Assembly: GCF_029167365.1 (NCBI RefSeq)
Contig: NZ_JARFNM010000001.1
Span: 372,001-436,000, forward strand
Direction of reading: 5' to 3'
Length of the DNA: 64,000 nucleotides
DNA from: Amygdalobacter nucleatus
GTDB taxonomy: Bacteria; Bacillota; Clostridia; Saccharofermentanales; Fastidiosipilaceae
Every line of letters starts with the position of its first letter. Position 1 is the first letter of the stretch. Of this stretch, positions 25,864 through 31,463 are shown piece after piece. The position numbers were made by a program, and so were the translations under genes. Below the pieces are notes generated by a model that had not been told where the DNA came from, did not search any database, and saw nothing but the letters and a program-made list of their open reading frames with translations.

Positions 25864-27516
25864 TTACTTATGGAGTGGAATATCAACTGCACCTATGTAA
25901 TTCCACTGTATCCATATGGTTTGTTTCTTGGTTCTTGTACCTGCTACCTTTTCAGATTTTTCAACATAAATCTTATCTACAAAGGTTCGAATGATCTCTG
26001 CATTAAGTTCTTGTATATCTGTGTATTGTCGTACTAATTTCAAGAAAGAATCTACGTTGAGACATTCCTCTTGCGCTTTAGAAATAAAGGCTTCAAGGGA
26101 TTCAATCTTGCTTTTCAGTTCAGCTTGTTCCTTGTCGTAGGACTCAGACATGCTCTTAAATCGTTCATCAGAAATTTTACCGTCTAAGTTGTCTTCATAG
26201 AGATGCTGAACAATTGTGTCAAGTTTGCTAATTCTTGCTTTTGCTTGCTCGAGTTCCCTATTAGAGGACTTTAACTTTTGGGTTAGTTCTTTCTCGCTTT
26301 TCTTCATCACAAGTCCCACGAACTCTTCTTCGTGCTGTTTGGCAAATGAAGTAATAGTTCTAAGCTCGTGAAGCAGTATTGCTTCGATCTGAATATTTCT
26401 AATTTGATGTGATGAGCATTTGCCTTTTTGCTTACGATAGGTAGCACAGACAAAGTATTCTTTATCATGGCTCCAATCTTTTCCTCGAACCTGATAAAGC
26501 TTGTTACCACAATCCGCACAAAATAGCATTCCTGATAACACTGGCATTTCTCCAAGATTGGCACGCACTCGTCTACCATCTCTTATACGTTGAACTATGT
26601 CAAAAGTTTCCTGGTCAATAATTGCTTCGTGTGTGTTTTTGAAAATTAGCCAGTCTTCTTTGGGATTCAATAATGTTTTCTTGCACTTGTACGATTTCTT
26701 TCTTGTTTTGAAATTGACCGTATGTCCAAGATATTCTTGCTTTTCAAGCATATTAGAGATAGTTTTTTGATTCCACATTCCATTAATCTCTGATTTCGCG
26801 GAAGGAATTTTAATACCAAGAGAGAAAAAATGCTCCGATGGTGTTGGAATATTCCTTTTGATTAGCTCATTTGCAATCTGGCTAGGCCCATACCCATTAA
26901 CGCAGAGTCTAAAGATTTCACGCACTACACTGGCAGCTTCTTCATCTACAATCCAATGATTTTTATCTTCAGGATCCTTAAGATATCCGTAAGGAGGATT
27001 GATGCAGAGCGGCTTCCCACTTTGTCCTTTTGCTTTAAACACAGCTTTTATTTTTCTGCTTGTGTCTTTAGCATAAAACTCATTGAAGATGTTGATGAAA
27101 GGTGTCATGTCGTTGTCTGACTGATTATTGCTATCTACGCCGTTATTTATTGCAATAAAGCGAATATCAGCGTTAGGGAATACCATCTCTGTATACACAC
27201 CAACTTGCAGATAATCTCTACCCAAGCGTGACATGTCCTTGACGATAATGGTTCCAATCTTTCCTTCGTCAATGAGAGCAGTTAATTTAAGCCAATCAGA
27301 TCGCTGGAAATTAGTACCCGAGTAGCCATCATCTACAAAGAACATAAGATTGTTGAAATGATTATCCTCGGCATACTTTTTCAGCATGCTCTTTTGATTG
27401 ATAATGGAATTGCTGTCACCTTGTAATTCATCGTCTCTGGATAAACGGCAGTAAAGTGCCGTTATCTTGCCTACATTATCTAGAGTATAAGAAGGCTGTC
27501 TATTTAGTTTATTCAT
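25864..27516 (-). CDS. Large serine recombinase (TnpX/integrase type)
   Basis: 550 residues. N-terminal resolvase domain: [11 protein letters not shown] with the nucleophile Ser26, then [14 protein letters not shown] and [13 protein letters not shown] recombinase domain ([16 protein letters not shown]...[15 protein letters not shown]) follows. A zinc ribbon (CADCG... with Cys pairs, about 330-365) and a coiled-coil region (about 400-490) complete the standard large serine integrase layout. Such enzymes integrate and excise elements between short sites. It is the last gene of a minus-strand cluster with tnpW, the capsid gene and a primase, so it should mobilise that element. GGAGG precedes the start. 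Confidence 0.93.
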
Positions 27517-27586
27517 CTGTTTTCCTCCTTTCCGACAGCCTTCAAGCGGTCAGTATATATTCCCGTATAACTCAGAATTTATCAAG

Positions 27587-28726: not shown

Positions 28727-29099
28727 TAGTTCCTTTCATTACTGTTTTCTGCAATTGCTGCAGTAATTTGCTTGATTTTGCCCATTTACCCTTTTGAATT
28801 CGCTGTTTTTGTACGCAAGACCCTGCGCCCGTTCCCGAAGGGGTACTCTTTAGAGATTTGACCCCCCTAGGGGGTTAGGTTCAGAAAGTAGTATGCGAAT
28901 AAATTTCCAACAGCACAGTATCTAGGCAGGTTTTCTTTCTTCAATGTTGTCAAAAAGCTGAAATCATTTCAGTATTTTGATTTGTGCATGATAGTATTTC
29001 TCTTTCATGTTCAACACAGGTTTGCGATACGAATTACGCAATCATAGGCACCACCTCCTTAAACGTGGCATGATGTGGCAGTTAAATTTCGTTATTGCC
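28727..29099 (-). other. Non-coding stretch between primase and capsid genes, with cos-like segment
   Basis: About 370 bases without a real gene. The minus strand has short peptides behind good ribosome binding sites: GGAGGTGGTGCCT followed by ATG ATT GCG TAA (29043 downwards), MKEKYYHAQIKILK (about 29008-28967) and MGKIKQITAAIAENSNERN (about 28782-28730). These look like stumps of phage genes left by deletion. Bases 28814-28885 are a GC-rich block with the inverted repeat ACCCCCTAGGGGGGT. Confidence 0.5.
28814..28885 (-). other. Candidate phage packaging (cos) site
   Basis: On the minus strand: CCCCCTAGGGGGGTCAAATC, then a TCTCTAAAGAGTACCCC stretch and GGGAACGGGCGCAGGGTCTT. A G-rich tract followed by TCAAATCTCTA is, from memory, common just upstream of small-terminase genes in cos-type phages of Firmicutes. 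No terminase gene follows here; the capsid gene does. The assignment is inference from context and resemblance. Confidence 0.35.
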
Positions 29100-31463
29100 T
29101 TATAGGGTTATAGGGGGATATAGGTTATTAACTGCCACTAATTGCCACTTAAAAAAATCGCTAAACTCACTTTTAAGCCTGTAGCCTTTAAGAAGCGTGG
29201 TTTTTTCTCCGCCTGTCTTGGGACGCTTTCTTACTACCTCGGCAAATTTTCTTAATTCCTGATTGAAGTTCCTGCTGTTCTCAGAAAAACAGCCGTTATC
29301 AATGCACCACTTCTTGTAGTGGTCGTATACAACTGCCGTTCGAATCTCAGAGCTTTGGTCTTTAATGAGTGCATCTTCAGCAAACTGTGCCATTTTGTCG
29401 CTGTCGTGGGCATAACTAAAAATGGCATCGAGGACGCTCTTAGGTGGCTTAAAGCCTTCATCTCGGAGGCTGGTAAAGCCTTCAAGAAGCCAGTTTAAAA
29501 TGGCACTTTGCACCTCTTTTTTAGAGAACTCCGCCTTTAAGGTTTTATCCTGTTCCCACGCTTCAAAATGCCTGTTAAAGGGAATAATCTGCATGCGGTC
29601 GCTACTAAACACTGTCATATCGCTGATGACAGGAAGATAATTAGTGTTCACATACAGTTTGAACTGTGGTTTAAAGTCAAAGCTGTTCTCATGCAGGAAT
29701 CGAGCGTTTAAGGTATCACTTCCTGTCATGTATTTAACTTGGGCTGAATTAAGGAATAGTCCTCGGCTTGGCTCAGATATATTGGCAAAGCGAACACCGG
29801 CAAGGCGTGCTACATCCTCGGTCGGCTGTGAGCTGTTGGGGTTCTTCTTTAGAGCAATGGTTTCCGCGCGTACCGCTTTTCCATAATCGCCCATCACAGA
29901 CAGAACGCTTTCCATGAGTGTGCCTTTACCGTTTCTTGTGCTTTCTCCAAAAAGAAAGAACATGCACTCATAGCGCGTATCACCGCTTAACGCATAGCCT
30001 AATGACTTTTGAAGATACAAAGTTTTCTCGCAATCTCCGCTCATAATTTCATCAACGAACCGGCTAAAACGCTCACTTCTTGCCTTCGGGTCATAAAACA
30101 CAGGTGATACTTTGGTAATAAGATCTGTTGCTAAGTGCTTGCGAAAAACACCATGCTCAAGGTCTAAAGTTCCGTTTTGGCAGTTAAATAGATAAATGTT
30201 CTTATCGAACGCTTCCATCGAAATTGGGTAAACGCTTTGAGCTTCCTTGATATAAATCTCACGGTTACGACGGCTGCTCCATTTGTTCCAATACTCAACA
30301 AGCATGGAACGGGTTCTCTCGTCTTTAATGGCACCAGCATAACGTATAAGAGAAAGAGCTAAATCTTTGCATAGTTCCATCGTTTTAAGCGTTCCAATAT
30401 CGCAAGTCCAACGTACACCGTCGAAGATGAACCACATCTTGCGCTCCGGTACATAGTGCAGAATGTTTTGGAAGATATCAGCAAACAATCTGCCATTACC
30501 TAAATCACCGTTGCGATATCGGATATTTTCATCAGGCTTTAGTTCCTGTAATTTAGATAAGAGATCATCAAAGTCTTCCTCAGCACTTGCATTATGGAAA
30601 GGCTCATAGAACGTATGACATTTAGAAACAGCTTTCTGAATGGTTGTATTGCCATAAGTATCTGAGCCACGGTGTTCATCCCACTTAGGACGGAATAAAG
30701 CAGACTTACGAAAAAGTCGGTCTATTTGCTCCTTGTTACCGCCACAGTAAAAGGCAAGAATAGACACAAGCGCGGCATCCGCTTCGCTATGAGAAGGGTA
30801 AGCCGAAATGTCACCATGCCAAAGTGCTGTAAATTTAGCTCCATTTATGGCGTTGCCAGCTTTTTCAATAACAGCTGTATCGCTTAAATACGAGCTTGCA
30901 CACACGTTATTTTCTTTTTCATGAGTGTTTATGTTTCGCTTCATGTACGTGTCTAAAAGCCACATTATGGCTGCATCGTCTTCTAAAAGCTCGCCTTCCT
31001 GATACACATCGCCCGTAACTGTTAGATAGCGATTCGTAGCTAGAGCGCTGTAAACCTCAATATCCCCATGCTTGATGTAATAAGCTGTTTTATCGTATGC
31101 GCCATTAAACAGAAGCAAGATATGAAAGCCATGCTTACTTGGACTGTATTCGATATAAGCGTGCTTGAAATGGGAAATAATCTCTTTTGCCCAGTCTTTA
31201 ATGATTCCATTATCGATACAGTGGTCTAAATCGATACCTAAGAGATTATCAACAAGCTTTATCCCAATCCCGTCATATTGGCCTTTCACTTTCAAGACAG
31301 CATCAAGCGAGGTAAAATCGCTTAAGTTGTCTGTAGCTGCTTTCTTTCCTGTTATGGGGTTATAAGGCGGCTTAGTGAGCCTACCGTTTTCTTGCTGCTC
31401 GTACTTCCATGAACAAAAGATATTCTTGTTCTTTAGTGCTTTTGGCAGTTTCTCTAGATCCAT
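29100..31463 (-). CDS. Phage/satellite primase-helicase (P4/D5 type)
   Basis: About 787 residues from ATG 31463, chosen because AAGGAGG precedes it; an open extension up to 31637 has no ribosome binding site. The N-terminal part is a primase-polymerase domain (GIGIKLVDNLLGIDLDHCID near 70-90 with catalytic acidic residues; SPSKHGFHIL). The C-terminal part is a D5_N plus superfamily 3 helicase with Walker A GESTRNGKGT near 503-512. Such proteins replicate phages, satellites and integrative plasmids. It is the first gene of the minus-strand element. Confidence 0.9.
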   Translation of the reverse strand: MDLEKLPKALKNKNIFCSWKYEQQENGRLTKPPYNPITGKKAATDNLSDFTSLDAVLKVKGQYDGIGIKLVDNLLGIDLDHCIDNGIIKDWAKEIISHFKHAYIEYSPSKHGFHILLLFNGAYDKTAYYIKHGDIEVYSALATNRYLTVTGDVYQEGELLEDDAAIMWLLDTYMKRNINTHEKENNVCASSYLSDTAVIEKAGNAINGAKFTALWHGDISAYPSHSEADAALVSILAFYCGGNKEQIDRLFRKSALFRPKWDEHRGSDTYGNTTIQKAVSKCHTFYEPFHNASAEEDFDDLLSKLQELKPDENIRYRNGDLGNGRLFADIFQNILHYVPERKMWFIFDGVRWTCDIGTLKTMELCKDLALSLIRYAGAIKDERTRSMLVEYWNKWSSRRNREIYIKEAQSVYPISMEAFDKNIYLFNCQNGTLDLEHGVFRKHLATDLITKVSPVFYDPKARSERFSRFVDEIMSGDCEKTLYLQKSLGYALSGDTRYECMFFLFGESTRNGKGTLMESVLSVMGDYGKAVRAETIALKKNPNSSQPTEDVARLAGVRFANISEPSRGLFLNSAQVKYMTGSDTLNARFLHENSFDFKPQFKLYVNTNYLPVISDMTVFSSDRMQIIPFNRHFEAWEQDKTLKAEFSKKEVQSAILNWLLEGFTSLRDEGFKPPKSVLDAIFSYAHDSDKMAQFAEDALIKDQSSEIRTAVVYDHYKKWCIDNGCFSENSRNFNQELRKFAEVVRKRPKTGGEKTTLLKGYRLKSEFSDFFKWQLVAVNNLYPPITL

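Follow-up and report, generated by a model that had tools for sequence, protein, structure and literature searches.

The 64,000-nucleotide stretch of Amygdalobacter nucleatus DNA that we analyzed (the window) contains an integrated element that we interpret, with a probability of roughly 0.7, as a phage satellite of a new family. It would hijack a cos site, build its own head shell, and borrow a portal, terminase, and tail. In the open-licence literature, we found no published description of this gene set. Like satellites in general, the element is integrated, has defined ends, and carries its own integrase and replication gene. Sequence comparison establishes its gene content and ends, an empty target site, transfer between phyla, the similarity and context of a cos-like site, the length of its capsid protein and purifying selection on it, and a clustering of element lengths. 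A first-pass annotation had already proposed a satellite, and this proposal is supported by the recurrent gene order, the clean ends, the existence of phages with matching cos sites, and the short capsid protein. Mobilization by a helper is what we infer.

The whole element (25788 to 39205, no strand assigned) is ~13.4 kb long and lies between two crossover dinucleotides. These limits come from the extent of homology to a Gardnerella element, which begins at 25788 and ends at 39207, from the inverted ends, and from the empty site of a sister copy, which set the crossover position. The recombinase-side end (25788 to 25815, minus strand), an attP half-site assigned from end comparison and the sister empty site, is GTGAACGCACCC followed by AA. 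The arm-side end (39180 to 39205, plus strand), AATCCCTTACTGAACACCCC followed by TT, is an imperfect inverted copy of it. The attP of the element is predicted to be GTGAACGCACCC-AA-GGGGTGTTCAGTAAGGG. Inverted ends were present in 19 of 21 elements examined; L255 (the second G411 copy) and G331 had no usable arm end, and G722 had an altered end motif. The uninterrupted target site is present in other (sister) Gardnerella genomes, and crossover falls inside AAAG. The inverted ends and this empty site are the clean ends for which the first-pass annotation had suggested a search. It had placed the element at 25864 to 31463, which does hold the core, but the true limits also include a divergent plus-strand arm. 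Because this arm belongs to the element, the claim that every gene is on one strand is true of the core only. We considered whether an AlbA_2-like sequence to the left was a gene split by the insertion, but it is a mere remnant, because the matching half is missing at the element's right end.

The core runs in the order primase, iterons, cos, capsid, tnpW, large serine recombinase. All of the parts named in the first-pass annotation (primase, cos-like site, capsid, TnpW, and recombinase) were found on the minus strand at or near its coordinates. The recombinase (25864 to 27516, minus strand; 550 aa), an integrase/excisionase, has Resolvase, Recombinase, zinc ribbon, and DUF4368 domains in Pfam (PF00239, PF07508, PF13408, and PF14287) and is 99% identical to a Gardnerella copy and 69% identical to a Peptoniphilus copy. 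A hairpin 3' of its gene (25820 to 25856, minus strand), also found in sister elements, may be a terminator or a recombinase-binding site. The small protein encoded at 27587 to 27754 (minus strand; 55 aa) is 43% identical to its Peptoniphilus copy and by itself falls below the Pfam TnpW threshold. However, its homologues at the same position in sister elements match PF14202 at 42 to 50 bits (cut-off, 25), so the TnpW name is fair. The primase-helicase (29100 to 31463, minus strand; 787 aa, with an upstream ATG at 31637 also open) has NrS-1 HBD, D5_N, and Pox_D5 domains in Pfam, matches phrog_1829 in PHROGs (E = 8e-150), and belongs to the P4 family profile TIGR01613. Its dN/dS is 0.06 to 0.18 between element copies. 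At the end of its gene lies an iteron block (29036 to 29150, minus strand), with two copies of GTGGCA and two of TGCCAC at 10-bp spacing, which is a candidate replication origin. The Bacillus badius element, which lies on pPM400 of the soil strain NBPM-293, has equal iteron geometry, but with GTAGCA/TGCTAC.

The four-gene order primase-capsid-tnpW-recombinase was found at 28 loci in Clostridia, Bacillus, and Gardnerella, so it is not unique to this genome, a possibility that the first-pass annotation had wanted checked. There was no terL, portal, or protease gene beside these 28 loci. Pfam and PHROGs searches found no terminase, portal, protease, or tail gene within the window element, as had been claimed. 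The element core is 97% identical between a Clostridia-class genome and Gardnerella, which is in another phylum, and copies occur in three different flanks. These comparisons indicate that the element has moved between phyla. The family appears to consist of widespread 10- to 14-kb mobile elements that travel in virus particles; the G168 element, at 14.5 kb, is an outlier whose end is less certain. Eight of 18 total element lengths fall within 84 bp, with differing cargo, while the core and the arm each vary by ~700 bp. None of 20,000 arm shuffles reached the observed clustering, in a test that ignores relatedness among elements. Because eight elements with different cargo lie within 84 bp, unmatched by arm shuffles, the clustered length is likely to reflect a packaging limit.

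The cos-like packaging site (28777 to 28880, minus strand) was assigned from a phage match, a sequence model, and genomic contexts. It proved to be real: it is 82.5% identical over ~110 bp to the HNH-terS gap of Gardnerella phage AB1. A model (R1), built from 12 satellite sites only, gave 49 matches in 1.47 Mb and matched all 10 further elements. Every phage match had HNH before it and terS after it, wherever flanking sequence was present and recognised. A chance origin is excluded by the identity to the phage gap together with this context test. Exact cos cores in four Gardnerella-type genomes lie in HNH-cos-terS prophages, whereas three exact matches in larger genomes (L297 to L299) are at unrelated loci. 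A 14-base pattern with one mismatch was too loose across the Gardnerella/Bifidobacterium genus, where chance matches were abundant and reversed-pattern controls were rich too, and exact matches alone were followed. In viral contigs, the exact long pattern matched only the element itself, and a looser core found phages. Phages with a matching cos, which the first-pass annotation had proposed to look for, therefore exist by both sequence match and HNH/terS context. In two element-bearing Gardnerella genomes, the sole cos core at one mismatch or fewer was the element's own. The virus contigs were also checked for terminal repeats, a sign of circular satellites, and none were found.

The major capsid protein (27773 to 28726, minus strand; 317 aa) is of the HK97 fold (PF05065, E = 1e-52; TIGR01554, 193 bits with a cut-off of 27.5). 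The 1.6-Mb genome has no second PF05065 capsid, and no helper candidate carrying one was found in it. The AF2-predicted fold of the element's capsid matches GTA, cf-PICI, and HK97 capsids, with the PDB cf-PICI EcCI2 structure among the best. Satellite capsids are 299 to 356 aa long versus 391 to 434 aa for phage capsids. In alignments, all satellite members examined lack the N-terminal region, which is the scaffold domain in HK97, a point that the first-pass annotation had suggested checking. A quick capsid tree splits satellite from phage capsids by a single branch, with weak support (56) and one long row (L029). The capsid dN/dS is 0.05 to 0.27 (0.23 to 0.27 versus Gardnerella copies), which indicates purifying selection. 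The missing N-terminal region, and the lack of a protease or portal, would also suit a different role. A helper terminase might package the satellite at the copied cos into helper-built heads, with the short capsid acting as a saboteur or size switch, like P4 Sid or PLE TcaP. A constrained length is likewise compatible with small heads made by redirection, or with a whole number of copies per helper head. However, the predicted fold spans the full mature capsid subunit, and the capsid gene keeps strong purifying selection. Co-assembly in one lattice is also doubtful, because identity to the AB1 capsid is just 28%. We consider this role unlikely.

The divergent arm, all on the plus strand, starts with a Cro/C1-type HTH_26 regulator (31774 to 31986; 70 aa; PF13443), and 9 of 10 arm regulators tested in sister elements match the same family. 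A type I restriction-modification system follows: HsdM, the methyltransferase (31986 to 33593; PF02384/PF12161; PADLOC MTase_I), HsdS, the specificity subunit (33526 to 34725; PF01420; PADLOC Specificity_I, E = 1e-132), a long open reading frame whose true start may be later, and HsdR, the restriction enzyme (34729 to 38070; Pfam; PADLOC REase_I, E = 1e-243). The last gene encodes an AbiTii-like abortive infection protein (38115 to 39059; PADLOC, E = 3e-48). Nearly all sister arms hold restriction-modification, and some add extra defence genes. The element might then be a defence island moved by a transposon-type recombinase, with the capsid and cos either riding along as idle passengers or serving as a decoy, which would shield the host by titrating out the terminase or capsid of a helper. 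Cos decoys could indeed block phage packaging, but a passenger would neither keep the capsid selected nor hold total length constant, and the primase, iterons, and recombinase provide the element's own replication and mobility. This explanation is quite improbable.

As an alternative, the first-pass annotation had offered a prophage from which the middle part is gone, and it had read peptide stumps at 28730 to 29050 as signs of some deletion. There are no clear scars there; a ribosome-site/start block is conserved with Peptoniphilus elements, in which the mini-ORF likewise ends after a few codons, and further lineages have additional small genes between primase and capsid. A prophage decaying in this genome would explain why the capsid gene stands apart from the genes that normally flank it and why a noncoding stretch separates it from the primase, but we reject it as having next to no likelihood, because the minimal order recurs at 28 loci, the frames are intact, dN/dS is well below 1, the ends are clean, the site is found empty, and a near-identical copy is in another phylum. 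Neither disrupted or unselected genes nor sister loci that hold the missing genes were found.

The element combines features of several known systems. As in Tn4451/Tn4453 (TnpX-TnpW), a TnpW-like ORF is directly ahead of the large serine recombinase. However, the Tn4451 family carries the mobilisation protein TnpZ, whereas here a phage primase, cos, and capsid are present instead, and no relaxase-like or TnpZ-type gene was found among the element's genes. It resembles P4 in its P4-family primase and may do so in the use of its cos, which is similar to that of phages. Unlike P4, whose integrase is of the tyrosine type, it has its own capsid and a serine recombinase, and no Sid or Psu match was found in it. 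P4 redirects P2 capsids with Sid, and P4-like satellites use the helper terminase via a cos in the satellite (PMC10690885). P2 phages and P4 satellites are described in PMC9122126 as bearing defence-gene hotspots. Like cfPICIs (e.g., EcCIEDL933), the element is an integrated satellite encoding its own HK97-fold capsid. However, cfPICIs encode capsid, protease, portal, connectors, TerS, TerL, and HNH (PMC10690885), and the element has the capsid alone, with no portal, protease, head-tail connectors, TerS, TerL, or HNH. TerS occurs only in the distant relatives L182 and L029; neither the four-gene loci nor the element in the window has it. The Streptomyces satellites MulchRoom and MiniFlayer also encode head proteins (PMC10690885) but, unlike the element, have terminases, portal, scaffold, and adaptor, carry direct terminal repeats, and lack an obvious replicase. 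The PICMIs found in Vibrionaceae are likewise integrated with a small gene set, and PMC10803314 describes them as being without capsid-remodelling genes.

For the satellite that we favor, we infer induction, helper packaging, head assembly from the satellite capsid, and origin function. Weighing against it are the absence from this genome of a helper candidate with a PF05065 capsid, the finding in the two Gardnerella genomes of no cos core, at one mismatch or fewer, but the element's own, the low identity of its capsid to that of AB1, and the weak support for the branch in the capsid tree. The large serine recombinase would excise and insert the element at sites with a common short core, and its replication by the primase-helicase would start at the iteron block. 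The cos appears to be copied from HNH-cos-terS siphophages, so we propose that a helper's terminase packages the element. The capsid protein, already of mature length, would form a small head of fixed capacity (~13.4 kb), which helper portal, connector, and tail would join. The divergent arm would be a swappable cargo bay, almost always holding a restriction-modification system. A broader proposal has, in our estimation, about an even chance of being right. Satellites in at least two phyla would use a ready-trimmed HK97 capsid. Lacking a scaffold, protease, or portal of its own, it would assemble around a helper portal into a head with a fixed capacity of 13.4 kb. Genome length would be tuned by swapping in restriction-modification systems that fit, and near-identical elements would cross phyla in this way.

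Known satellites either remodel the helper capsid or carry a whole head-and-packaging module. One with only a shell protein and a copied cos would stand between P4-like satellites and cfPICIs and close the gap that separates them. It would also be a small system for HK97-type shell assembly and size setting without a fused scaffold, and the length clustering predicts a head capacity of ~13.4 kb. Because PGAP already annotates the parts, many more copies should be findable by a simple gene-order rule. Through this family, complete restriction-modification systems and, in Gardnerella, macrolide-resistance genes may move between bacteria as far apart as Clostridia and Actinomycetota.

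The first-pass annotation proposed a minimal phage-satellite-like element at 25864-31463 of the window. All of the minus-strand genes it named were found: a primase-helicase (31463-29100), a capsid gene (28726-27773), a 55-aa TnpW-like ORF (27754-27587), and a large serine recombinase (27516-25864). The intergenic cos-like site between the primase and capsid genes is real, at 28880-28777, and there were no terminase, portal, protease, or tail genes nearby. The TnpW-like ORF has no Pfam match of its own, and its same-position homologues in other elements match PF14202. No second PF05065 capsid occurs elsewhere in the 1.6 Mb genome. 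However, the proposed extent was too short. Positions 25788-31996 are 97% identical at the nucleotide level to Gardnerella vaginalis GED7760B, and the homology is interrupted after 31996 and returns at 36091-39207 (98%). Therefore, the mobile unit includes a plus-strand arm divergent from the core, which encodes an HTH_26 regulator, HsdM, HsdS, HsdR, and AbiTii.

The flanks differ among all three Gardnerella copies. The joined flanks of the copy in Gardnerella strain PSS_7772B were used as a query against related genomes, which revealed uninterrupted target sites (...CATGCTTGAAAAGCACTGG...) and so placed the crossover inside AAAG. Transferred to the window, this crossover sets the element limits at 25788/9 to 39204/5. 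The ends are imperfect inverted repeats of each other, which is how the half-sites of a serine-recombinase attP should look. Adjoining the insertion, 25620-25740 reads by eye as the C-terminal remnant of an AlbA_2/ATP-binding type protein; its other half was sought at the far end of the element and not found. Elsewhere in the window are a fluoride riboswitch (12039-12118, minus strand) and a sequence of about 230 bases (12205-12426) with no Rfam match that shares 75% identity with a Gardnerella repeat, of which one copy (L248:764-984) abuts the GED7760B satellite.

We sampled the family by searching for capsids in collections of genomes and viruses, in 391 genomes from the class, and in two orders, and annotated gene order with HMMs. 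The order primase, capsid, tnpW, serine recombinase was present at 28 loci, including an already annotated one on Bacillus badius plasmid pPM400, and 12 of the 391 genomes had a short satellite-type capsid. At three loci (L003, L037, and L173), the same primase-capsid pair precedes an excisionase-like gene and then a tyrosine integrase. In other relatives there are two serine recombinases, and the integration module is therefore exchanged. In the HMM annotation, terL, portal, or protease genes were next to the capsid at none of the four-gene loci or their relatives. In two distant relatives (L182:6975-7562 and L029:7147-7791), cos, terS, and capsid follow directly on one another in that order, possibly as an intermediate between phage and satellite. 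In the gap that separates primase from capsid, many members (L257, L172, L175, L179, L004, L171, and L178) encode recurring short proteins, small zinc-ribbon proteins among them, that are missing from the window/Gardnerella lineage. They are candidate head-size or packaging factors.

Satellite capsids are 299-356 aa long, versus 391-434 aa for phages of the same set. Alignments attribute the gap to roughly 90 N-terminal residues missing from the satellite proteins, at the position where HK97 phages carry the scaffold (delta) domain. The satellites have instead a short motif in common, S..Y...FWN.(M/L)R. The fold predicted by AF2 (pLDDT 82) matches capsids in their mature form from GTA, cf-PICI EcCI2, and HK97. 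A quick tree puts satellite and phage capsids on either side of one branch (support 56; 0 of 500 shuffles gave as low a value), with L029 forming a long row. Between element copies, dN/dS was 0.05-0.27 for the capsid, 0.06-0.18 for the primase, and 0.05-0.16 for the recombinase. The satellite capsid would form a shell joined with the portal and tail of a helper. In the main rival reading, this protein redirects the assembly of helper heads or blocks it.

The sequence that the window cos-like site matches in Gardnerella phage AB1 lies between the HNH gene and terS, the gap in which cos usually sits in such phages. Viral contigs with the exact core were selected by pattern, so that context rather than presence was tested; HNH was upstream in all, and terS was downstream wherever sequence extends. 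A model trained on sequence alone, from 12 satellite sites, gave 49 matches in 1.47 Mb and matched 10 of 10 further elements. Every phage match follows an HNH gene, with terS or terL next wherever sequence extends, and phage loci L072 and L192, fetched for their capsids only, also match after the HNH gene. In most satellites cos lies between primase and capsid. At four loci (L171, L173, L257, and L258) a single cos on the opposite strand follows the capsid, and in two others inverted copies flank the capsid (L172:1564-1668 and 3064-3165; L174:1103-1206 and 2423-2523). The satellite site copies a phage cos in sequence; cleavage at cos is putative. Two copies each of GTGGCA and TGCCAC, spaced by 10 bp within each pair, lie around where the primase gene ends; in the B. 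badius element, GTAGCA and TGCTAC stand at nearly the same spacing. The arrangement suggests iterons, to which the primase-helicase would bind, and a candidate origin.

Both ends were placed in 19 elements (18 distinct), with a canonical end chosen over a slightly higher-scoring match in one (G564). Eight total 13.34-13.43 kb, despite cores of 5.5-6.2 kb and arms of 7.1-7.8 kb; the rest are mostly 10.3-13.6 kb, with one of 14.5 kb. Arm-core shuffles put eight in a 90-bp window 0 times in 20,000, a figure that is indicative because the statistic ignores kinship among elements. The simplest reason for a constrained length would be a particle capacity limit; alternatively, each helper head would take an integral number of copies.

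The arm is led by an HTH_26 regulator in 9 of 10 elements tested. Its systems include type I, type III, Eco57I-type IIG, FokI with D12, SwaI with a methylase, and Mrr with a methylase. The G706 element (two copies, L332 and L333) has an FtsX permease and a sensor kinase instead of restriction-modification. In the Gardnerella copies, a cassette with macrolide-resistance genes for Mef(A) and Msr ABC-F, both above NCBIfam cut-offs, replaces the hsdM/hsdS part (L248:7590-10390, inside the GED7760B satellite arm).

Sequence directly shows that the element integrates at a short core, has a replication gene of its own and a copied cos, keeps its own capsid gene under selection and its total length under constraint, and swaps cargo in the arm. 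Induction by a helper and packaging by the helper terminase would complete the cycle. P4-like elements are not known to carry a capsid gene, whereas the window-type set has its own. Conversely, cfPICIs encode capsid, protease, portal, connectors, and both terminase subunits (PMC10690885), whereas the window-type set has a capsid without portal, protease, or terL. The gene set is thus intermediate between the two. We found no published description of it in the open-licence literature. The window host belongs to the class Clostridia and Gardnerella is an actinomycete, so the near-identical element found in both has moved recently between phyla, whichever route it took.
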